NCBI RefSeq assembly: GCF_001571225.1 | Contig: NZ_BCTJ01000023.1 | Span: 1 to 64,000, forward strand | Source: Hydrogenophaga palleronii NBRC 102513 | GTDB lineage: Bacteria; Pseudomonadota; Gammaproteobacteria; Burkholderiales; Burkholderiaceae_C | DNA length: 64,000 nt | Direction of reading: 5' to 3' | Part shown: piece after piece, positions 10,349 through 49,664 of the stretch | Layout: each line of letters opens with the position of its first letter | Position numbering within the stretch: the first letter of the stretch is position 1 | The notes under the pieces: model-generated | What the model saw: only the letters and a program-made list of their open reading frames with translations | The model's database searches: none | What the model was told of the DNA's origin: nothing | Made by a program: the position numbers and the translations under genes

Positions 10349-10942
10349 GTGAACAAAGCTCTGATGCTCAAAGCCACCCTGGCCCTGGCCCTTGCCACCC
10401 CGCTGCTGGCCTCGGCCGAATCGAACCTGGTCGCCACCGGCAGTGCCACCGCGCGCCTGGACTTTCGCGTGGTCATCCCGCGCGTGCTGTTCCTCGGCGT
10501 GGGCACCGGTGCCACCGTGATCCCGCTGGCCAACAACACCACCGTCGACATGGTGACCTTCGACTACACGACCAACCCGACCGCCATCGGCACGGGCGCT
10601 CCCGCCACCACCATCACCGGCAACGTGGTGCCGGTTCGTGTGGTCGGCAACAACGGCCAGATCACCCTGACCGCCAGCACCACCGGCGCGCTGACCAACG
10701 CCACCGGGGACACCATTCCATGGACGCAAATCACGTCCACCAGCAGCCTGCCTGCGCTGCCCAGCCCGGTCATTCCGGCCACGGGCGCCGGTGTGGCCTC
10801 CAACGTCACCCTGTCTTCCGGCACCCGCGTGACCGACCAATCCGCCAACTGGACCTTCAGCTACGCCAACGCGGCCACCGTCGCACCCGGTACCTACGGC
10901 ACCAACAACGGCCGTGTGACCTACACCGCCGCCATGCCCTGA
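10349..10942 (+). CDS. Exported pilin-like subunit 1 (probable major subunit)
   Basis: I do not recognise this as a named family. The 197-residue product starts at GTG 10349, supported by GAAGGA six bases upstream; an upstream open frame is leader sequence. A signal peptide (MNKALMLKATLALALATPLL) ends at about ASA-ES. The mature part is Thr/Ala/Val/Gly-rich, has no cysteine and looks all-beta. Three motifs recur in other genes of the locus. ATARLDFRVVIPRVL near the mature N-terminus is matched in the last gene. DTIPWTQI in the middle and the C-terminal TFSYANAA...GTYGTN..VTYT are matched in the next gene. A conserved C-terminal beta strand with a Tyr near the end is what chaperone-bound fibre subunits show. 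Its position first, with its own leader, suggests the most abundant subunit. Confidence 0.75.
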   Translation: MNKALMLKATLALALATPLLASAESNLVATGSATARLDFRVVIPRVLFLGVGTGATVIPLANNTTVDMVTFDYTTNPTAIGTGAPATTITGNVVPVRVVGNNGQITLTASTTGALTNATGDTIPWTQITSTSSLPALPSPVIPATGAGVASNVTLSSGTRVTDQSANWTFSYANAATVAPGTYGTNNGRVTYTAAMP

Positions 10943-10955
10943 TCGGCGTACGGGT

Positions 10956-11028
10956 CCGTTGATGGCGCGGCCTGCCCGCCGGTCAACGGCCCTCGCGGGG
11001 GAGGTGGTGTACGGCACCCGCCCCCGCG
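10956..11028 (+). terminator. Two consecutive hairpins between subunit genes (probable attenuator)
   Basis: The first hairpin pairs CCGTTGA (10956-10962) with TCAACGG (10983-10989). The second pairs CGCGGGGG (10994-11001) and GGTG (11003-11006) with CACC (11015-11018) and CCCCCGCG (11021-11028). Neither is followed by a long T run. Placed just after the first subunit gene, they may reduce read-through or protect the upstream mRNA, so that subunit 1 is made in excess over the rest. Confidence 0.5.
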
Positions 11029-11107
11029 GCCTTTCATGCGCCGGCGCCACAGCTTGTGACCAAGCGGCCCGGCAGACAGCTCCGAACGCCATGCCCGCCA
11101 ACACACC

Positions 11108-11773
11108 ATGAAGCACATGCAGCGTCACAACACCATCCGGCTCGCCGCGAGTGCGGGCCTGGTCGCGCTGTGCCTGGTGGACATCGGCGCGGCCCATGCG
11201 TGGAACCTGGACGTCGTCGCCGGTTCGCGCCGCCTTTTTCTGCACGTCGGCAACGGTGCCTTGAGCGGCAGTGGAAACGGCACGCTCGATGCAGCGGTCG
11301 GCAGGAGCGGCCCCGTCAACCTGGTGCAGGTCACGGTGCCGGCGACCGCTGTCGGCACGGGCGCCGCGCAGCCCATGACCAGCAACAGCACCCAGTCAAA
11401 CAGCCTGTGGGCCGACGGTTACCTGGTCTGCCCGGACCCCTCGCGCCAAATGCTCGTCGGGGCCGGTTACCGCATCGCCAGCGGCGCCACGACCAGTGCC
11501 TCCCTGAGCGTCGCACAGACCACTCCGCTCACCAATACCGCAACGACCGACACCATTCCGTTCTCGCAGATCAGCTGGACCGTCTCTGCCGCGGGCAGCA
11601 GCGTCCCCGGCGTGATTCCGGCCGGCACCTTTACCGGAGCCAGCCAGACGCTGGCCACCGTGCCCGCCAACCGGTATTTCGAGAACTGCCACACCTTCAG
11701 CTATGCCAACTCGGCGGTGCGTGCCGCTGGCACCTACAACGGGGGGGTGACCTACACCCTCAGCGCGCCATGA
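11108..11773 (+). CDS. Exported pilin-like subunit 2
   Basis: This 221-residue exported protein has a signal peptide of about 32 residues ending in AHA-W. It is related to the first subunit: both contain a DTIP(W/F)(T/S)QI block and end with the same pattern, TFSYANSA...GTYNGGVTYT...P. Unlike subunit 1 it has two mature cysteines (CPDPS and ENCHTF), likely a disulfide. An insert makes it longer, which would suit a minor or tip component. Its stop codon overlaps the next gene's ATG (ATGA). ATG 11117 is an alternative start. No database family is claimed. Confidence 0.7.
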   Translation: MKHMQRHNTIRLAASAGLVALCLVDIGAAHAWNLDVVAGSRRLFLHVGNGALSGSGNGTLDAAVGRSGPVNLVQVTVPATAVGTGAAQPMTSNSTQSNSLWADGYLVCPDPSRQMLVGAGYRIASGATTSASLSVAQTTPLTNTATTDTIPFSQISWTVSAAGSSVPGVIPAGTFTGASQTLATVPANRYFENCHTFSYANSAVRAAGTYNGGVTYTLSAP

Positions 11774-12237
11774 CGACGCGATCAACCCGCCTGGCCATCG
11801 CGGCCGCCCTGTGTGCCTGCATGGCCAGCGCCGCCTGGGCCAACCCGCATCGGCTGGACGATTCGGCCAGCCACACCGTGCCACCCAATGTGCAGATGCA
11901 GTGGCTGCCGCTCACGCCCGGCCAGGCTTTCGCCGGTGGCATGGAGGCCACCCTGCGTGTCAACGTGCGCATCGACACCCGCGACTGGGTCGGCCGCAGC
12001 GGTCGGATCTACATGGTGCTGCCACGCGACCAGGCCTCCACCGTCGAGGCGGTGTGGTCCACGCAGGGCCGGCTGCAGGCCGGCCGGCTGACCTCTGGCG
12101 AACGCACCCTGGTGTACGCCGGACAGATCACCAGCCCGACGCTGGAAGACCAGCTGCAAGTGCGCCTGCGCTCGGCCCCGGACTGGGTGTCCAACTCGCG
12201 GCGCCTGAGCTTCCATTTCGAACTCGATGTCGACTGA
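11770..12237 (+). CDS. Small exported protein of the fibre locus, unknown function
   Basis: The 155-residue product begins at the ATG overlapping the previous stop. The frame is open further upstream, but only this start gives a signal peptide (LAIAAALCACMASAAWA) and fits the operon. The mature part has no cysteine and is predicted all-beta, with TLRVNVRIDTRDWVGRSGRI and SGERTLVYAGQI. It does not carry the subunit C-terminal pattern, so it is more likely a periplasmic assembly factor or an adaptor than a shaft subunit. I do not recognise a family. It overlaps the chaperone gene by 11 nt. Confidence 0.65.
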   Translation: MTTRSTRLAIAAALCACMASAAWANPHRLDDSASHTVPPNVQMQWLPLTPGQAFAGGMEATLRVNVRIDTRDWVGRSGRIYMVLPRDQASTVEAVWSTQGRLQAGRLTSGERTLVYAGQITSPTLEDQLQVRLRSAPDWVSNSRRLSFHFELDVD

Positions 12238-13069
12238 TACCCCCATGCGCCCTGCCGTTTCCCGCTTCCGCTCTCCGCTCGCACGGGCGGGCTGGCTTGC
12301 TGCCCTGGTGCTGGCCGGCACGCCGCTGGCCTCGCTGGCGCAAGGCTTCGCGGCCTACATCACGCCGCCGCGTTTCGAGGTGCAGGTGGCCCCCGGCCAG
12401 AACCTGCGCCAGGTGGTGGAAATCCACCACGTCGGCCCACAAACCGGCCACTACCGCATCTACACCAACGACTGGAGCTTCCTGCCCGACAACTCGGTGG
12501 TGTTCAGCAACGAGCTGGCGCCGGACAGCTGCCGGCCCTGGGTGGCGGTGGAGAAGCGCGAGCTGCAGATCGAACCCGGCGCACGCTACCGCTACCGCTT
12601 CGAGATCACGCCACCGGCCGGCACGCCGGCGCGCGAGTGCCGCTTCGCGCTGATGATCGAAGGCCTGGAGCCCTCGCAGGTCAAGGGCGACCTCAACTTC
12701 CCGGTGGGCGGGCGCATCGGCGTGATCGTCTACGCCAGCATCGGTGACGCCGCGCCACAGCTCGAAGTGGTCAGCAGCCGCACCGTCAACGTCAACGGCA
12801 CGCCGACCCCGGTGGTCGAGGTGCGCAACCGCGGCAACGCCCACGGCCGCCTGGAGGGTTACCTCGACGGCACCGACGCCAACGGCGCGCGCCTGGAGAT
12901 GGCGCCTGCCGACCTGCCGATCCTGCCGGGCGAAACGCGCAACGTTGCCATCGCCCCGGTCGCCGAACAGGGCAAGCCCTTGCCCACGATCCGCTTCCCG
13001 CTCAAGGTCAAGGGCAACCTGGAGTGGGGCAAGAACCGCATTCCGCTGGACGCGAGCTTTGCCCCATGA
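12227..13069 (+). CDS. PapD-like periplasmic chaperone of the fibre locus
   Basis: This 280-residue exported protein resembles periplasmic pilus chaperones: two Ig-like domains after a signal peptide that ends at about SLAQ. Domain 1 (about 42-165) has ITPPRFEVQVAPGQ, then a block in which PG and RF residues precede ECRFALMIE, and VGGRIGVIVYASIG. Domain 2 (about 175-280) has VVEVRNRGNAHGRLEG and ILPGETRNVA. The likely job is to bind unfolded subunits in the periplasm and hand them to the outer-membrane protein encoded next, which it overlaps by 4 nt. The resemblance is by pattern; I cannot align it against known chaperones here. The start is ATG 12227; ATG 12245 is possible. Confidence 0.7.
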   Translation: MSTDTPMRPAVSRFRSPLARAGWLAALVLAGTPLASLAQGFAAYITPPRFEVQVAPGQNLRQVVEIHHVGPQTGHYRIYTNDWSFLPDNSVVFSNELAPDSCRPWVAVEKRELQIEPGARYRYRFEITPPAGTPARECRFALMIEGLEPSQVKGDLNFPVGGRIGVIVYASIGDAAPQLEVVSSRTVNVNGTPTPVVEVRNRGNAHGRLEGYLDGTDANGARLEMAPADLPILPGETRNVAIAPVAEQGKPLPTIRFPLKVKGNLEWGKNRIPLDASFAP

Positions 13070-15042
13070 TGAGGGCGGTGCTGCGCCCGATCCACTGCCT
13101 GCTGGCGCTGCTGGGTGCTTCCACCCCGTGGCTCCCGGCCTGGGCACAAGGCACCCCGACACCCACCGCGCCACCGGCCTATGTGGACCGCGTCATCGAA
13201 GGCCTGCCGCCCGAGCCGACGGCCGCGGCCGAGTCGCAGCCCTATGACCCGAGTGGCTGGCCGCGTTTCCTGCGGCTGGAGACCCGGCTCGGCACGCAGC
13301 CCTTCGACCAGAGCCACAAAACCCGCATCGGCTACGGCATCTACGGCCTGCTGGACACGCCCAACCACGGCACGTTGTCGATCGACGGCACCTACGCACC
13401 GCACGACAGCAGCGGTTCGCTCACGCTGCGCCAGCGTGCCATGCCGCTGTCCAACGGCTGGATGCTGAGCAACGAACTCGGTGTGATCACGCCGCCTTCG
13501 CCCGCCATCCTGCGCTTGCCCACCCGCATCTACCTGCCCACGGCCATCCTGCAAGGTGTCAGCACCGAATGGGAAAACCCGGGCAAGGGCCTGCAGCTGC
13601 AGGCCAGCACCGGCGAGCCCGGCCGGCTGGACTTTCTGCCCTCCAACGGCTTTCGCAAGCTGATGGGCCAGCGCACCACGTTCGGTGGCCAGTGGCGGAT
13701 CAACGCCGACGACACCAACCCGCTGTCCACCCAGGGCTGGACGGTCGCGCTGCAACACGAAGACGCGCGCCGGGTCTCCAACCTCGACGTGCCCACGCAG
13801 CCCGGCGACATCGTCGACGCCAACGCCACCGTGCTGGCGCTGCGTTTCGAAGGCGCCGACCACCGCATCCAGGCGCAGGTGCTGCAGAGCCAGGCCAGCA
13901 ACGTGAGCGGCTCGCGCAGCGGCTTCTGGATCGACGGCGAATGGGACGACGGCCCGCGCCGGCACGGCCTGGGCGCCTACCGCCTCGAGCGCGACCTGAG
14001 CTGGGCCAACCAGCCAATGGCCAACGACCTGGTGGGCGTCTACGCGCGCAGCAGCTGGCGCACGCGCCAGTGGTCGGCCGAAGGTTCGGTGGACTGGCTG
14101 GACTCGATCTCCGGGCGCAGCGACAGCGGTTACTTCGCCACCGGCTCGGCGCGCTGGCGCCTGGACCGCGACAACACCATCGGTGCCGGCGCCACGGTGC
14201 GCCACTTCGGGGGCGACGCCTGGAGCAGTTATGGCGACTGGCGTTTCCAGAACGGCTGGGGCAACAGCGGCCTGCGGCTGGAGTTCCAGCAGGCCGACAA
14301 CGAAGCCGATGCGCGCTGGCTGACCTGGGACCAGGAGTGGCAGGTGCCGCAAGGCTGGAGCCTGTCCACCACGTTGGGTGTGGGCGCCTACGACGCCTAC
14401 CAGAGCCGCCCGAAAGAGTCGGTCTGGCGCACGGCACTGAGCATGTCGGCGCCGATCACCGCCAAGGCCAGCCTGCGCGGCAACGTCAACACCGAGCGCA
14501 GCAACAACGGCCAGACGCGCTACAGCCTGAACCTGGGCGGCCACTGGCGCATCGACCAGCGCTGGAGCTTCGAAGCCAACTACAACCGCTACACCGGCCG
14601 CAACCGCTTCGACACCTCGCTCGACCCGCTGGCGCCTCCGGTCAACTTCTTCATCCCGCAGTCGGACCGCTCCTTCTACGCCGTGTTGCGCTACGAGCTT
14701 GAGGCCGGCAGCCGCAACGTGCCGCTGGGTGGGCGCGCCGCCGACGGTGGTGGCCGCATCGAAGGCACGGTGTACTTCGACGACAACCGCAGCGGCACCC
14801 AGGAAGCCAGCGAACAAGGCGTGCCCAACGTCACGGTCTACCTCGACAACCGTTACGCGGTGCGCACCGACAGCCAGGGCCGCTTCGAATTCCCGTTCGT
14901 CGCCAGCGGCCCGCGCACCGTCACCGTGCGCGGCGAAACCCTGCCGCTGCCCTGGAACGTGGTCAACCAGGGCCAGGCCCGGGTGGACGTGCGGTTGCGC
15001 GAGAGCGCCACGCTGTCGATACCGGTGCAGCGCACCGAATAA
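13066..15042 (+). CDS. Outer-membrane beta-barrel with C-terminal Ig/Cna-B-like domain (usher-like role)
   Basis: This is a 658-residue exported protein whose signal peptide ends at about AWAQ. Residues of about 60-565 are a long run of alternating polar and aromatic beta strands typical of an outer-membrane barrel (for example YSLNLGGHWRIDQRWSFEAN). Residues of about 575-650 form a separate domain with GTVYFDDNRSGTQEASEQGV, VTVYLDNRYAVRTDSQGRF and PLPW. That pattern is that of the SdrD-B/carboxypeptidase-regulatory beta-sandwich. By position after the chaperone it should be the secretion pore, yet it is shorter than typical ushers (about 800 residues). I see no clear usher plug or N-terminal chaperone-binding motif. 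The start is ATG 13066, overlapping the chaperone stop. Confidence 0.7.
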   Translation: MMRAVLRPIHCLLALLGASTPWLPAWAQGTPTPTAPPAYVDRVIEGLPPEPTAAAESQPYDPSGWPRFLRLETRLGTQPFDQSHKTRIGYGIYGLLDTPNHGTLSIDGTYAPHDSSGSLTLRQRAMPLSNGWMLSNELGVITPPSPAILRLPTRIYLPTAILQGVSTEWENPGKGLQLQASTGEPGRLDFLPSNGFRKLMGQRTTFGGQWRINADDTNPLSTQGWTVALQHEDARRVSNLDVPTQPGDIVDANATVLALRFEGADHRIQAQVLQSQASNVSGSRSGFWIDGEWDDGPRRHGLGAYRLERDLSWANQPMANDLVGVYARSSWRTRQWSAEGSVDWLDSISGRSDSGYFATGSARWRLDRDNTIGAGATVRHFGGDAWSSYGDWRFQNGWGNSGLRLEFQQADNEADARWLTWDQEWQVPQGWSLSTTLGVGAYDAYQSRPKESVWRTALSMSAPITAKASLRGNVNTERSNNGQTRYSLNLGGHWRIDQRWSFEANYNRYTGRNRFDTSLDPLAPPVNFFIPQSDRSFYAVLRYELEAGSRNVPLGGRAADGGGRIEGTVYFDDNRSGTQEASEQGVPNVTVYLDNRYAVRTDSQGRFEFPFVASGPRTVTVRGETLPLPWNVVNQGQARVDVRLRESATLSIPVQRTE

Positions 15043-15069
15043 CGCGCCGGGTGCCGCTCGACGGACGCT

Positions 15070-15087
15070 GCGCCGGCACACCGGCGC
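15070..15087 (+). other. Hairpin before the last subunit gene
   Basis: GCGCCGG (15070-15076) and CCGGCGC (15081-15087) form a perfect seven-base stem with a CACA loop, in the only sizeable gap (82 nt) in the second half of the locus. It may lower expression of the last gene or protect upstream mRNA ends. An AAGGGGGG ribosome binding site follows at about 15104-15111. Confidence 0.45.
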
Positions 15088-15124
15088 CGACTCAAGTTCC
15101 CGAAAGGGGGGTCGATAGTGGGTC

Positions 15125-15604
15125 ATGTCCACCTCGAGATCCCTCACTCTTTCTGCACTGGCCGCCGGTGCACTGATGCTGGTGCCTGCCACCAGCATCG
15201 GGGAGAGCATGGTGACCAGCCGCGGCAACGCCAGCGCGGCGCTGGACTTCCGCATCATCATTCCGCCGGTCATGCGGGTGCTGGAGAACAGCCACCCGGT
15301 GGTGCTGGACGCCGAGGCCAATGGCGACTGGAGCGCGCAGCAGCGGCTGGTGGTGATGTCCAACCTCAAGCGCGGTTTCTGCGTCACCCTGCGCATGAGC
15401 GCCCCCGAGGTGGATGCCTGGCGCCTGCGCGCGGTGCAGGGCGACGGCCTGAACTTCAGCGCGGTCGACGACGGTTACCGCCTGTGCGCCGAGCGCGCCG
15501 GCCGCTACACCCTGCTGCTGGACCACGAGTTCGATGCCGCCGCCCGCCCATCCGGTGCCGGCCCATTGCGCTGGCCGGTGCAGACGGACATCGCGGCACT
15601 GTAA
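15125..15604 (+). CDS. Exported pilin-like subunit 3 (possible tip or terminator subunit)
   Basis: The 159-residue exported protein has a signal peptide ending near SIGES. Its mature N-terminus, NASAALDFRIIIPPVMRVL, closely matches ATARLDFRVVIPRVLFL of subunit 1. The C-terminal strand pattern of subunits 1 and 2 is missing. Two cysteines (GFCVTL and RLCAER) could form a disulfide. A subunit that keeps the N-terminal motif but lacks the C-terminal strand would fit the tip or base of a fibre. That is inference from pattern only. The gene is preceded by a strong AAGGGGGG ribosome binding site. Confidence 0.65.
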   Translation: MSTSRSLTLSALAAGALMLVPATSIGESMVTSRGNASAALDFRIIIPPVMRVLENSHPVVLDAEANGDWSAQQRLVVMSNLKRGFCVTLRMSAPEVDAWRLRAVQGDGLNFSAVDDGYRLCAERAGRYTLLLDHEFDAAARPSGAGPLRWPVQTDIAAL

Positions 15605-45732: not shown

Positions 45733-46469
45733 GAGTCCCTCAGGACTTGCTCCAGTCTCATTGGCGTGTGGTTTCGCAACCGAGTATCCACGGCAAGCAC
45801 CCAATCCCCGTTGAGGCCATCCAATGGTAGATAGTGCGTCAGTTCGACCCCGTTCACCGAAATGACGCCCGTGGTTTCTCCACCAAAAGCACGGGCCCTG
45901 TCCAAGATTGCGCCCCTCTGAGTTTGCACGTTGTCGACCCACCGAGAGGGGCGCTGCGGCAGATCGAAACCTGCCATAGCGAGCTCAATGGCTTCTAGAC
46001 GCTCGAAGTCGTTCGAAGGACGAGTCGCCAGCAAGGGAAGAGGCCCTGACCACCTCAAATGATGAAGCGCGGCAAGATCACGCGATGTGAATTCTATGGT
46101 TCGCAGCTCGCTGGCGCGGACCAGCACAACCCGATCAACCGCATACACAAGCGCAACAGGACGCTCCGCCGCGAGAACTGAAAGGCTTAGCAGCGCTGTT
46201 GACAACAGTATCCACAGCAGCACACCAATGTCTGCGACAACCTCCGCGCCCACCTTCCTCCGGGTTCGCCAAGGCAACACCAGCAGCGCTGTAGTGACCA
46301 CATGAACAACCACCGCATAGGCCCCGACAGACAAGACGCCGGAGCCCACCCAGAAGGAGCGGGGGTACCACCAGCCCAACACTGCCCACACGCCAAGCAG
46401 CAAGGTCAAGAGTGACACTCCCACCGCTCCCCAAAACATCGCGTCATGGCCTCGGCGAGTTGTCGTCAT
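45714..46469 (-). CDS. TfpX/TfpZ-like type IV pilin accessory protein
   Basis: The 251-residue membrane protein has three or four hydrophobic segments in the first 110 residues (ending in a WYP motif, [10 protein letters not shown]), then [20 protein letters not shown] and a polar C-terminal domain. That resembles TfpX/TfpZ proteins, encoded beside pilin genes and needed for proper pilin function. The start ATG 46469 overlaps the stop of the oligosaccharyltransferase gene. Its DNA is visibly less GC-rich than the flanking moaC. The call rests on pattern and context. Confidence 0.65.
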
Positions 46470-48121
46470 GGCGTCTTCGTATCTTTTGAGCTGAGCAGCC
46501 CGCACGCATTGAGCACTTCGGGACTGTTGATCTGCATGAATTCATCGTGTGCCGCAGGAAAAATTTGAGCAAACGATACGGCCGTCTCACCGGCTTGCAA
46601 GGCCCTGCCCAAGCGACACAGCGCTTCGAGGCGAACCCAGAAAACAATCGGATTGGGACCCACATTCAGCAAGCGATCCGTGACTTCCAACATGGCCGAT
46701 GCGTTCGCGGAACTCAAGGCGACGCGCTCCACCAAAGCGCGATCAGCGTAATAGCGGAACAAAACCGTGCCCTGAGCACCAGTCACGCGCGTCATGTCGG
46801 TTGAAGCACGACCGTCTTCGCCGAACGCCCTAGCCACACGGACATAGTCCGCCAACGCCAGAAAACTGGAAACCAACAACAACGCGGCCAGAACCACAGT
46901 TCCCGCACTTGGAAAAGTACGGTTCGCGCGCGCCGCAACTGGCTCCGCTACCATCAATACGCCAAAAGCAAATGCTGTGGGCAGAAGGAAGTGCATGTAC
47001 CAGGCCGGATACTCCAGGAGACTGTGCACACCCACCACTGCGATCAGCATCCAGGCCCATTGGGAGTTGGTATCGGCTAGCCGCCAAGGCAACCGCCGGC
47101 ACAAAAACCAGACCATGGGGGCAAGAATCAGGAACGTGGTTGCGAATCCAGTTTCCGCCAGCAGGTGCAGCACCAGATTATGAGCATTGGTCGTATTGGA
47201 ACCGGCTGGATTAAATGGCAACTCAAACAAGCGCGCAAAACCCAGATTGCCCCACCCCACACCCGCTATGGGGTGCATAAGCGCCAGGGACCACGCCTCT
47301 TGCCAATAGATGAACCGGATCGACACGGACTCCATGCCTCGTCCATGCACACCTTCCAGACCAAACCCGAACAAAGCTGACAGCGCATCCAGGAGTTGGG
47401 TGAGTAGAAGTACCCACAACGGAGCCAGGAAGAAGAGCTTGAACTCATGGGGCCTTGCGGTCTTGCGCCAGATACACAAGCAACCGGAAATCAAGAACAA
47501 CTCAAGCAGCCCTGTTCTGGAGGCGGATAGGGCCAAACCTGAAAAGGCGAGAAAAGCGACCCCAAGCGACACCCTCAGCGTCACCTCGCGCTCTCGATAC
47601 AACCACCATAGTGACACCAGTCCGAGAACGCAGAATGAGGCGAGATGGTTTGCCTGGCGCAGATTTCCGTAGGGGCGGTCGGACTCGTTTTGACTCACAA
47701 GCGGGTAGAAGATCCGCTCGATGTCAAAGTACTGAAGCCACGCCACCAACGCGTGAATCACCATTCCAATCAGCAGTGTCCACATCACCCCCCTCAGCAG
47801 GCTTCGCCGTGCCACGAACTGTGCACCCAGTCCGATGGAGATCCATGCACAAAGTGCGGCCGCAAGCAGCGCGATCAGAGAGAGCGGTTCGGATTGGGGC
47901 CCAAGCATGATGGCCACGAACGATGCAAGGAGCCAAATGCCAGGCCACTTGGGCAAGGATGGCCTACAGACCAGGCCGATCAAAGACACGGTGATCACGC
48001 CCATCAGAAAAGGCGTCACCATCAGCGATGGCCCATAGGCCCTCGGCCAGACCAGCGCTGCGAGAAGCAAAACGGCGATCCCTATCAGCCCTGAAGTTTT
48101 CTTCGACACGGATTGCGTCAT
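46466..48121 (-). CDS. PglL-type O-oligosaccharyltransferase (Wzy_C family)
   Basis: The 551-residue membrane protein has about twelve helices and the O-antigen-ligase/PglL signature. The pattern is RPYGNLRQANHLASF, a large periplasmic loop with AGVGWGNLGFARLFELPF and NTTNAHNLVLHLLAETG (the candidate catalytic His), then HSLLEYPAWYMHFLLP. The EYP.WY pattern separates protein O-glycosylating PglL/TfpO enzymes from O-antigen ligases. Directly downstream of a type IV pilin gene, it most likely glycosylates that pilin. The start is ATG 48121; it begins just after the pilin terminator, so read-through is expected to be partial. Confidence 0.85.
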   Translation of the reverse strand: MTQSVSKKTSGLIGIAVLLLAALVWPRAYGPSLMVTPFLMGVITVSLIGLVCRPSLPKWPGIWLLASFVAIMLGPQSEPLSLIALLAAALCAWISIGLGAQFVARRSLLRGVMWTLLIGMVIHALVAWLQYFDIERIFYPLVSQNESDRPYGNLRQANHLASFCVLGLVSLWWLYREREVTLRVSLGVAFLAFSGLALSASRTGLLELFLISGCLCIWRKTARPHEFKLFFLAPLWVLLLTQLLDALSALFGFGLEGVHGRGMESVSIRFIYWQEAWSLALMHPIAGVGWGNLGFARLFELPFNPAGSNTTNAHNLVLHLLAETGFATTFLILAPMVWFLCRRLPWRLADTNSQWAWMLIAVVGVHSLLEYPAWYMHFLLPTAFAFGVLMVAEPVAARANRTFPSAGTVVLAALLLVSSFLALADYVRVARAFGEDGRASTDMTRVTGAQGTVLFRYYADRALVERVALSSANASAMLEVTDRLLNVGPNPIVFWVRLEALCRLGRALQAGETAVSFAQIFPAAHDEFMQINSPEVLNACGLLSSKDTKTP

Positions 48122-48140
48122 CTCTACTGTCCAAGAATTA

Positions 48141-48164
48141 AAAAGGGCGCTCGAAGCGCCCTTT
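48141..48164 (-). terminator. Terminator after the pilin gene
   Basis: AAAGGGCGCT and AGCGCCCTTT pair around a three-base loop; on the minus strand the stem is followed by TTAATT. It lies 21 nt after the pilin stop and just before the oligosaccharyltransferase start, which should make pilin mRNA far more abundant than the rest. Confidence 0.85.
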
Positions 48165-48185
48165 CTTGCATGCCACGGAACGATA

Positions 48186-48665
48186 TCAGCGACGGCAATC
48201 CGCAGGTACCAGGCGCGCGTTGAGCAAACCACGGTTGCCACCCGAGGCGCTCGTCGTGCCTGCCGAGTTGCAATTCCAGGTCACGGAGCCGGTAACCGGC
48301 GGGGTGCCAGCGGTCAGGCCGTCGTCTCCATCACGCGGAGCGAGAATCAGCGTATTGCTACCTGCAGGGGCTACACGGGGGGTATAGGCGATGGTGATTT
48401 CGCCATTGCCCGAGTCAATTACCACAGAGGTCACGTTGGCCGTCGCGGTGGGCTGCGTCCAGCCCGAGCCGAAAGGCGCGCCATTCGCGGCGTTTTCGCT
48501 AACGGCCGTCTTGGCCGAACCTGCCAAGGTCAGGCCTTCGGTCACGCGAGCACGGATCGTGTAATCCTGATAAGCCGGCAGAGCCACAGCAGCCAGGATA
48601 CCGATGATGGCCACCACGATCATCAATTCGATCAGGGTGAAACCTTTTTGCAGGGAACGCTTCAT
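48186..48665 (-). CDS. pilA: Type IV pilin
   Basis: The 159-residue prepilin has an eight-residue leader (MKRSLQKG) cut before [20 protein letters not shown], the conserved hydrophobic helix with Glu5. The globular part ends with two cysteines (TWNCNS and PADCRR) that form the usual D-loop disulfide. Thr/Ser-rich stretches could carry glycans. An AAGGAG ribosome binding site stands six bases before ATG 48665. Transcription is from a sigma-54 promoter. No other pilus assembly gene is in the window, so the machinery must be encoded elsewhere. Confidence 0.95.
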
Positions 48666-48719
48666 GGAGAACTCCTTGGAGAGAAAAAACAGAAACTGGG
48701 TTGAAGACAGTTCTGTATC

Positions 48720-48735
48720 AGCAGGCGCCGTGCCA
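48720..48735 (-). promoter_or_regulatory. Sigma-54 promoter of the pilin gene
   Basis: Read on the minus strand, TGGCACGGCGCCTGCT has GG and GC separated by exactly ten bases, matching the -24/-12 consensus (TGGCAC-N5-TTGCT) at all key positions. The transcript would start near 48709, giving a leader of about 44 bases. Confidence 0.85.
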
Positions 48736-48786
48736 ACTTGAATTGGCCTGTTTTCTGCGGCCTATTTCACGCTTCACACGCTCGCA

Positions 48787-48835
48787 GTGACATTTGTTGA
48801 CCGGTACTCCGGCATGGGAGCGACATTTTTTGTCA
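48787..48835 (-). promoter_or_regulatory. Possible PilR enhancer sites
   Basis: TGACATTTGTTGAC (48788-48801) and CGACATTTTTTGTCA (48821-48835) are related elements 33 bases, about three helical turns, apart. They lie 55-100 bases upstream of the sigma-54 promoter. They contain the TGTC/GACA units described for PilR sites in Pseudomonas. No PilS/PilR genes are in the window. Confidence 0.5.
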
Positions 48836-48860
48836 CCGCCTGCCGTTCAGACAGGATTTG

Positions 48861-49664
48861 TCACAGCTCGAAGGTCTGCCCCGCGCTGAGCCAGCGGATG
48901 TCGTGGCGGCCGTCTTGCGGGCGATCAGGGGCCTGGTCGAAGCCCTGGATCTCTTCCATGATCTGGCCGGTTTCGGCCGGCTTGGTGTGGGTGATGTAGA
49001 TCGGGTACTGGCGGCCGGGCGCGATCTGCGCCAGTTCGTCGGCCAGGGTGCCCGGGTCCAGGTGCAGGCTGCGTTGCGCCAGCGCGTGTTCGCGGGTGCT
49101 GAACGCGGTTTCGATCACCAGCTGTGCCACCGGCAGCTGGTTGATGCGCTGCCAGAAGGCCGGGTTACGTCCAGTGTCGCCGCTGAAGACCCAGTGGCCG
49201 GACGCGCTGGCAGCGGCAAAGCCCACCGCCGGCACCGTGTGCACGGCAGGCAGCACCTCCACCGCTTTGCCGCCCACGTGCAGCACCTCACCAACCGAGA
49301 TCGACACAAAACGCATCAGCGGCGCATCGACGCTGGGAATGGCGGAAAAGTCGGGCCAGATCAGGTTGTTGAAGATGTGCACCTTGAGCGCGGCGATGGT
49401 GCCGGGCAGGGCGTGCACCTGCAATGGTGCGGCGCCCGCGGCCAGGCGCCGGGCGGCCACCGAGTCCAGCATCAGCGGCAAGGCCGCCACGTGGTCGAGG
49501 TGGGAGTGCGTGAGCAGCACGTGGTCGATGCGCGCCATCTCGTCCAGGGTCAGGTCACCGACCCCGGTGCCGGCGTCGATCAGGACGTCGTCGTCCAGCA
49601 GAAAGGAGGTGGTGCGGCAGCCATGGGCAATGGCACCGGAACACCCCAGAACACGAACCCTCAT
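48861..49664 (-). CDS. Metallo-beta-lactamase-fold hydrolase, class II cyclic-nucleotide phosphodiesterase-like
   Basis: The 267-residue protein has the fold's motifs: THSHLDHVAALPLMLD (HxHxDH), HTVPAVGF, FSGDTGRNP and a late ITHTKPAE. These, with the opening MRVRVLGCSGAI, resemble class II cAMP phosphodiesterases. The actual substrate is uncertain (tRNase Z-type relatives exist). ATG 49664 is chosen because family similarity begins there. Confidence 0.8.
   Translation of the reverse strand: MRVRVLGCSGAIAHGCRTTSFLLDDDVLIDAGTGVGDLTLDEMARIDHVLLTHSHLDHVAALPLMLDSVAARRLAAGAAPLQVHALPGTIAALKVHIFNNLIWPDFSAIPSVDAPLMRFVSISVGEVLHVGGKAVEVLPAVHTVPAVGFAAASASGHWVFSGDTGRNPAFWQRINQLPVAQLVIETAFSTREHALAQRSLHLDPGTLADELAQIAPGRQYPIYITHTKPAETGQIMEEIQGFDQAPDRPQDGRHDIRWLSAGQTFEL

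Follow-up and report, generated by a model that had tools for sequence, protein, structure and literature searches.

A six-gene locus of Hydrogenophaga palleronii probably encodes a chaperone-assembled fibre system with a predicted plug-less outer-membrane barrel

The window analysed here is a stretch of 64,000 nucleotides from Hydrogenophaga palleronii NBRC 102513 (assembly GCF_001571225.1, contig NZ_BCTJ01000023.1, positions 1 to 64,000). On its + strand, six open frames (P0001 to P0006) span positions 10349-15604 (Table 1). All six proteins begin with a hydrophobic leader, as judged by eye, and the frames overlap by a few bases at P0002/P0003 (11770), P0003/P0004 (12227) and P0004/P0005 (13066), which fits translational coupling. 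The initial annotation, made from the sequence alone, had placed six co-directional genes with leaders here, and the frames, overlaps and leaders bear it out. Together, our results suggest that the locus probably encodes a chaperone-assembled fibre (pilus) system, chaperone-usher-like in its working, with an outer-membrane platform of its own. The basis is computational: the homology of the chaperone, a modelled pilin-like fold, two classes of subunit, the linkage of the genes and the modelled anatomy of the barrel.

Table 1 Features of the six-gene locus, by position in the window
Feature	Position	Strand	Description
P0001	10349..10942	+	Type-1 subunit, proposed polymerising (rod) pilin; start GTG with GAAGGA upstream; mature from ~10418
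P0001 N-terminal extension, mature residues 1-21	10418..10480	+	Proposed donor strand; not in a strand in the AlphaFold2 model
P0002	11108..11773	+	Type-2 subunit with two Cys and without N-terminal extension; proposed tip subunit
P0003	11770..12237	+	Small secreted beta-rich protein, one per system
P0004	12227..13069	+	PapD-superfamily periplasmic chaperone, by profile comparison
P0005	13066..15042	+	Outer-membrane barrel; proposed export and assembly platform
P0005 N-terminal tail, 39 residues of the mature protein	13147..13263	+	Invariant Y12 and D14 (Y-x-D); candidate docking peptide
P0005 predicted 26-stranded barrel, mature residues 40-520	13264..14706	+	AlphaFold2 model
P0005 strand 5-6 loop, residues 115-133	13489..13545	+	R127 in 99% and P131 in 88% of rows
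P0005 C-terminal beta-sandwich, SdrD_B/CarboxypepD_reg-like	14749..15039	+	Located where ushers have CTD1
P0006	15125..15604	+	Accessory subunit, lineage-restricted; possible base or terminator subunit

Profile comparisons identify P0004 as a distant chaperone of the PapD superfamily. When 83 chaperones of the new family were aligned by hhalign with a profile of 18 PapD-like chaperones from relatives plus FimC, the probability was 96.4 (E 1.3e-9) in local and 97.8 (6e-12) in global mode, and the reverse direction gave 97.0 (8.6e-11). The alignment covers 185-188 columns and extends into the second Ig-like domain. The PapD-like chaperone of the initial annotation is thereby confirmed at E values of about 1e-9 to 1e-12. 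A plain hmmsearch with the same profile matched the chaperone of locus L128 at 5.8e-10 and gave at least 21 further matches between 9.4e-8 and 6.1e-5, some genomes occurring twice among them and the window's P0004 not being among the matches listed. PF00345 (PapD_N) matched neither P0004 at E up to 1 nor the 83 family members at E up to 0.01, and a PDB search with P0004 alone returned nothing useful. Cys 64, Cys 100 and the motif S-C-R-P-W-V are invariant in all 83 chaperones. R11 is likewise invariant (83/83), and falls on a conserved Arg of the profile in the hhalign alignment, one column off in the column map. The classical carboxylate anchor consists of Arg8 and Lys112 (FimC numbering); in the new chaperones the neighbourhood of Lys112 holds Gly, Val or Ile, not Lys. 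Archaic chaperones are described in PMC4654587 as lacking analogues of either anchor residue.

The subunits fall into two classes. P0001 was modelled with AlphaFold2 from an alignment (A4) of 130 rows, two from the window and 128 of 160 long matches, with a predicted local distance difference test score (pLDDT) of 93.2, a predicted template modelling score (pTM) of 0.83 and residues 1-23 outside strands; a further alignment, A5, holds 37 rows (the window and 36 of 82). The model supports a fold like that of chaperone-usher pilins, at moderate scores. In a VIA search with it, 39 of the 50 rows, which ran from Z 4.9 to 7.6, were chains of chaperone-usher pilins or adhesins; the systems represented are CFA/I-class, type 1, P, Csu, ECP and Caf1. 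The top row was 6k73_D of the CFA/I tip complex (Z 7.6, 122 residues, 3.2 Å). The aligned range of P0001 begins at residue 16-25 in 42 of the 50 rows, and six pilin rows begin at residue 6-11, including part of the N-terminal extension.

Subunit genes are repeated, usually two or three per complete locus, and we defined type 2 as the subunit gene immediately 5' of the small-protein gene. The median distance from the predicted cleavage site to a conserved Gly is 32 residues in type 1 (n = 77) and 17 in type 2 (n = 50 of 51), the type-1 N-terminus thus being about 15 residues longer. Cysteines are absent from 70 of the 77 type-1 subunits and number two in 47 of the 51 type-2 subunits; these counts retain two type-1 subunits with a short N-terminus that may be misclassified type 2. 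Judging from the sequences, the N-terminal extension, present in type 1 and absent from type 2, could donate a strand. The two cysteines and missing extension of P0002 fit a tip subunit. The similarity of P0006 to P0001 is confined to the N-terminal stretch (40 columns, E 7.1e-11), as a shared donor strand would predict. On this inference, P0001 would polymerise, P0002 would form the tip and P0006 would join through the same donor strand and have another function. Membership of the spore-coat-U or archaic subunits by sequence was considered and rejected: PF05229 reached hhalign probabilities of 4.6 and 4.2, with only the last strand aligned, and matched none of the 130 subunits at E up to 0.01. 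This agrees with the remark in the initial annotation that the subunits are unlike spore-coat-U pilins.

Every locus has the small protein P0003, with one copy for each chaperone; its N-terminal D-D and C-terminal F-E are conserved. It had no convincing match in Pfam, NCBIfam, PHROGs or the profile comparisons, and may be a minor subunit or a pore closer. For the six proteins together, Pfam gave only SdrD_B and CarboxypepD_reg at the P0005 C-terminus and weak sub-threshold matches elsewhere, NCBIfam gave no match near any cut-off, and PHROGs gave one weak match (P0001, 0.025). The Pfam matches of P0001 to URO-D, P0003 to DUF4131, P0004 to Ig_DLEC1 and P0006 to Phage_P2_GpE lie below the cut-offs and were taken as chance; URO-D recurs in one of the 130 subunits, P0001 itself, and the DUF4131 and Ig_DLEC1 matches are absent from the rest of their families. 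WxL matched none of the six proteins or the 130 subunits scanned. PF00577, PF00345 and PF05229 (SCPU) had no match in the own genome at E up to 0.001, and no further chaperone-usher gene was found there. No account of such a system was found in the literature searched, a weak absence, since most subscription papers lay outside its scope.

To analyze the distribution of the locus, we scanned one genome per species from 84,980 species with the chaperone alignment. A total of 215 candidate stretches were obtained, of which 202 were confirmed, and the locus counts rest on the best 80 of these 202. With iterated hidden Markov models, small protein, chaperone and barrel were each detected in all 80 loci (82, 82 and 81 matches; the L071 barrel is incomplete, at 418 residues). 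This count starts from the chaperone search and so shows a barrel wherever there is a chaperone, not a chaperone wherever there is a barrel. Of the six genes that the initial annotation had wished to see surveyed, these three keep together. Type-1 or type-2 subunits were found in 77 of the 80 loci; L072, L076 and L120 start near the small-protein gene, at the edge of a contig. Full-length matches of P0006 are limited to 26 of the 80 loci, with 10 more matching over 47-61 residues only, which places the sixth gene outside the conserved core and not, as first annotated, within the set. As a rule, the subunit genes precede that of the small protein, which is followed by the chaperone gene and then the barrel gene. 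In L052, L053 (one of two sets), L054, L055 and L075 the barrel lies downstream on the opposite strand, and in L117, L127 and L128 it is the first gene. Over 77 loci, pairwise distances correlate at 0.94 between chaperone and barrel, 0.90 between small protein and chaperone and 0.92 between small protein and barrel, with 0 of 999 permutations as high, and these correlations include shared species divergence.

By record labels, the 202 stretches are mostly from Beta- and Gammaproteobacteria, the labels including Hydrogenophaga, Variovorax, Polaromonas, Ramlibacter, Ideonella, Burkholderiales, Steroidobacteraceae, Pseudoxanthomonas and Thiothrix; Steroidobacteraceae and Pseudoxanthomonas are examples from the Gammaproteobacteria. 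Among named genomes, close relatives of the locus belong to Hydrogenophaga. Distant relatives share about 25-29% identity in the barrel and 36-46% in the chaperone, and since they keep this identity and the genes stay together, the locus is more than a chance arrangement. At E 1e-5, the barrel was found in 32 of 60 genomes: its own, 27 of 35 further genomes from the genus and 4 of 24 further ones from the order. Among these four, the match in G037 and G051 is confined to the C-terminal domain, and that in G045 and G057 extends beyond it. A phylum-wide search found it in 21 of 398 genomes, full length in 3 and as the C-terminal domain alone in 18. Plasmid copies gave no match at E up to 0.001.

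The AlphaFold2 model of P0005 (658 residues; 81 rows) has a pLDDT of 89.5 and a pTM of 0.81. We counted 26 long strands at residues 40-520 and a sandwich at 535-629. The longest inter-strand stretch is about 22 residues, with no plug-sized insertion anywhere, and only 39 residues, poorly ordered (pLDDT 54-58 at residues 1-30), precede the first strand. As modelled, P0005 is without the usher N-terminal docking domain and has one C-terminal SdrD-B-like domain. PMC8410936 describes ushers as having five domains: besides the 24-stranded barrel there are a plug, one N-terminal domain and, at the C-terminus, CTD1 and CTD2. The frame length and the model agree with the 658-residue barrel without a recognisable plug first annotated here, and the C-terminal Ig/Cna-B-like domain is real, with Pfam matches to SdrD_B (6.9e-07, slightly above cut-off) and CarboxypepD_reg (3.2e-06, below cut-off). 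PF00577 did not match P0005 at E up to 1. An usher profile built from 20 distinct ushers (31 frames), among them FimD, found no barrel of this family at E up to 10 among 13,590 open frames, and its sole two matches (L047, L119) are separate canonical ushers. Neither a full-length match of the barrel to an usher family nor a match of all six genes to a characterised fimbrial system appeared. The chaperone homology, the P0001 fold and the missing usher-profile match thus support the initial suggestion of a fibre system distinct, or strongly diverged, from the known chaperone-usher branches.

Several results, besides the shared divergence and the chaperone-first count in the linkage data, weigh against the proposed system. 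With P0001, Foldseek gave weak matches (best E 0.019, a type 1 pilus rod), and the VIA Z scores are all below 8, a range that, according to the tool, may reflect merely a common arrangement. In the PDB, the chaperone profile best matches the sequence of EfmWxLIP1 (2e-4, profile 21-173), which is not a pilus chaperone. The P0005 body matches the usher profile at chance level (probability 0.5 local, 0.1 global) and matches the profiles of TonB (51 local, 45 global) and MtrB (67 and 77) better. Foldseek with the P0005 model placed FimD/PapC at ranks 1-11 (E 5e-12 to 2e-8, 671-713 columns), which speaks for the proposed system, but with template modelling (TM) scores of only 0.30-0.41 and root-mean-square deviations of 17-23 Å.

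The WxLIP match bears on an alternative in which the chaperoned proteins form no fibre and the barrel releases single surface or matrix proteins. EfmWxLIP1, found by a simple profile search, is a partner of Gram-positive surface proteins, and the subunits resemble no named pilin by sequence. We regard this alternative as improbable, because the N-terminal extension is present in type 1 and absent from type 2, fibre subunits dominate the P0001 fold list, and the subunit genes are repeated. P0004 resembles WxLIP (DUF916-DUF3324) proteins in this PDB match and, by reading, differs from them in lacking a C-terminal membrane helix. According to PMC10599100, WxLIP is predicted to supply the strand with which the WxL sandwich is completed. 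No pilus chaperone was found at E 1 or better in the PDB profile search with the chaperones, and DUF916 (PF06030) matched 2 of 83 chaperones at E up to 0.01 (best 0.0027). From these sequence matches, the family may lie near the meeting point of pilus chaperones and WxLIP-type partners. As a separate observation, the EfmWxLIP1 match hints at a common origin of pilus chaperones and the Gram-positive WxL-interacting proteins.

In geometry, P0005 comes closest to an Mtr-complex barrel, and one explanation would make it a common porin-like protein or an electron conduit of the MtrB kind, with no part in subunit export. VIA ranked the Mtr barrel (Z 19.0, 411 residues, 4.7 Å; chain 6r2q_B, presumably MtrB, with 26 strands) above TonB-dependent receptors (Z up to 16.4) and FimD 9fxs (Z 15.8, 366 residues, 5.2 Å). 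In Foldseek it stood at rank 12 with a TM score of 0.44, the remainder of the 50 being mostly TonB-dependent receptors. MtrB is also the best of the four profiles (usher, TonB, MtrB, LptD) for the body, LptD reaching 11 local and 0.0 global. In both respects P0005 is like MtrB/PioB barrels, and unlike them it has an SdrD_B-like domain, which has no match to the MtrB profile. MtrB sheathes a cytochrome, and by reading no cytochrome was noticed in the six-gene locus. MtrB is not known to have chaperone-pilin neighbours; here, the barrel accompanies the chaperone in 80 of 80 loci and diverges in correlation with it, and no other usher or PapD_N gene was found in the own genome. We therefore consider the porin or conduit explanation very improbable.

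Another explanation makes the barrel a genuine usher by ancestry, from an archaic-like chaperone-usher branch in which the usher lost the N-terminal domain, plug and CTD2 and gained two strands. The Foldseek ranks, the superfamily-like chaperone and pilins and the whole-barrel comparison with the usher profile (probability 55 local; 78.7 global with E 2e-6, against 9.9 for MtrB and 0.1 for TonB) point that way. So does the C-terminal domain, which alone aligns to usher CTD1 (profile 651-767 of 842) at probability 78-80, with 0.5 or less for TonB, PapD, SCPU and MtrB. However, the whole-barrel match is driven by the C-terminal domain, since the body alone is at chance level, and in local mode the E values for usher (1e-4), TonB (1e-4) and MtrB (3e-5) show that it is not specific. 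The CTD1 score of 43.0 exceeds the maximum of 30 column shuffles (22.9), but generic SdrD repeats match the same region (35.2, probability 26), which puts the link at the level of fold and weakens the match as proof of descent. A sub-threshold CarboxypepD_reg match near the C-terminus was seen in 2 of 9 distinct ushers (10 frames; 1.8e-4 and 0.046), at the CTD2 position and not at CTD1. PapC_C, taken as CTD2 from its position in scanned ushers, matched none of the 81 C-terminal domains at E up to 0.1. The absent plug, N-terminal domain and CTD2, the different strand count and the VIA order of Mtr barrel over FimD also count against usher ancestry, which we hold to be possible, if doubtful. P0005 alone had nothing useful in the PDB except an SdrD-like end. 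On this evidence, the sequence of the body is unlike that of ushers, and the C-terminal domain resembles theirs in fold; P0005 would work like an usher, yet falls outside the usher family by the tests applied.

We propose a working model for the chaperone-assembled fibre system. The subunits would reach the periplasm by their signal peptides without a last beta-strand, and P0004 would lend one and hold them ready for assembly. At the periplasmic mouth of P0005, the chaperone strand would be replaced by the N-terminal extension of the next P0001, and the fibre would be pushed outward through the plug-less 26-stranded pore. P0002 would cap the tip, since without an extension it can only be first; P0006, where present, combines an extension with a different body and may terminate the fibre. 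In place of the absent usher N-terminal domain and CTD2, the Y-x-D tail and C-terminal domain of P0005 would recruit the chaperone-subunit complexes. Fibre formation itself, as well as the missing strand, donor-strand exchange, assembly direction, secretion route and the roles of P0002, P0003 and P0006, we infer. It is tempting to speculate, as a rather unlikely further step, that the pore evolved independently of ushers: a 26-stranded barrel of the MtrB/TonB class, without plug or recruiting domain, would have gained an SdrD-B-like domain that does the job of CTD1, and P0003 would gate the pore or start the fibre.

Among known systems, the locus resembles archaic (sigma) pili such as Csu of Acinetobacter baumannii and CupE of Pseudomonas in its PapD-superfamily chaperone, its pilin-like subunits with an N-terminal extension, a chaperone gene adjoining the outer-membrane gene in most loci, and several subunits per locus. 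Unlike them, it has no SCPU or PF00577 match, a modelled 26-strand plug-less barrel and an extra conserved small protein, P0003. The alternative (alpha) CFA/I class provides the best P0001 fold matches (the 6k73 tip complex, CS17 and CfaB, with CooA among them) and no sequence match was found to it; in that class, the outer-membrane protein is an usher of full size. If a system works without plug, recruiting domain and CTD2, it would reveal which parts of an usher are truly needed for fibre building and export, and how a wide plug-less pore stays shut, and the 202 related stretches would gain a name and a test.

Upstream of the locus lie an Lrp/AsnC-like regulator and a large indolepyruvate-ferredoxin-oxidoreductase-like (IOR) gene, and downstream an MltA-like gene, all named by reading. 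The RNA between P0001 and P0002 has no significant hairpin (z -1.4), and a promoter and terminator scan gave nothing exceeding shuffles. Four loci of the same genus (L045, L046, L048, L050) carry a much diverged version, with a barrel about 26-29% identical and a different gene order, beside the same lrp/IOR genes; in L045 and L048 it also adjoins the mltA gene, as in the window. It is as if alleles had been exchanged at one chromosomal site. Two complete sets of the system are present in L053, and L115 has two chaperone clusters and one barrel in the stretch examined. In one Burkholderiales genome (L047:5474-8068 / L161), a barrel of the new family is extended at its N-terminus by a long region that by eye looks LysM-like, and a weak LysM match (0.0044, below cut-off) was seen in a canonical usher encoded a few kilobases from it. 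Two loci with the system bear alphaproteobacterial names, Pseudotabrizicola (L124) and Novosphingobium (L101); the lrp/IOR flanks of L124 are like those of Hydrogenophaga, so this contig is probably misassigned. In the window's own genome, a 2840-residue frame (G000:C2:81022-81210, L002) weakly matches the barrel C-terminal domain (0.007). Elsewhere in the window, positions 46000-49000 have a low G+C content (57-59%), and a type IV pilin-like gene (48186-48665, - strand) lies beside one for an O-antigen-ligase-like membrane protein (46466-48241, - strand), both by reading; the two are possibly a pilin glycosylation pair.

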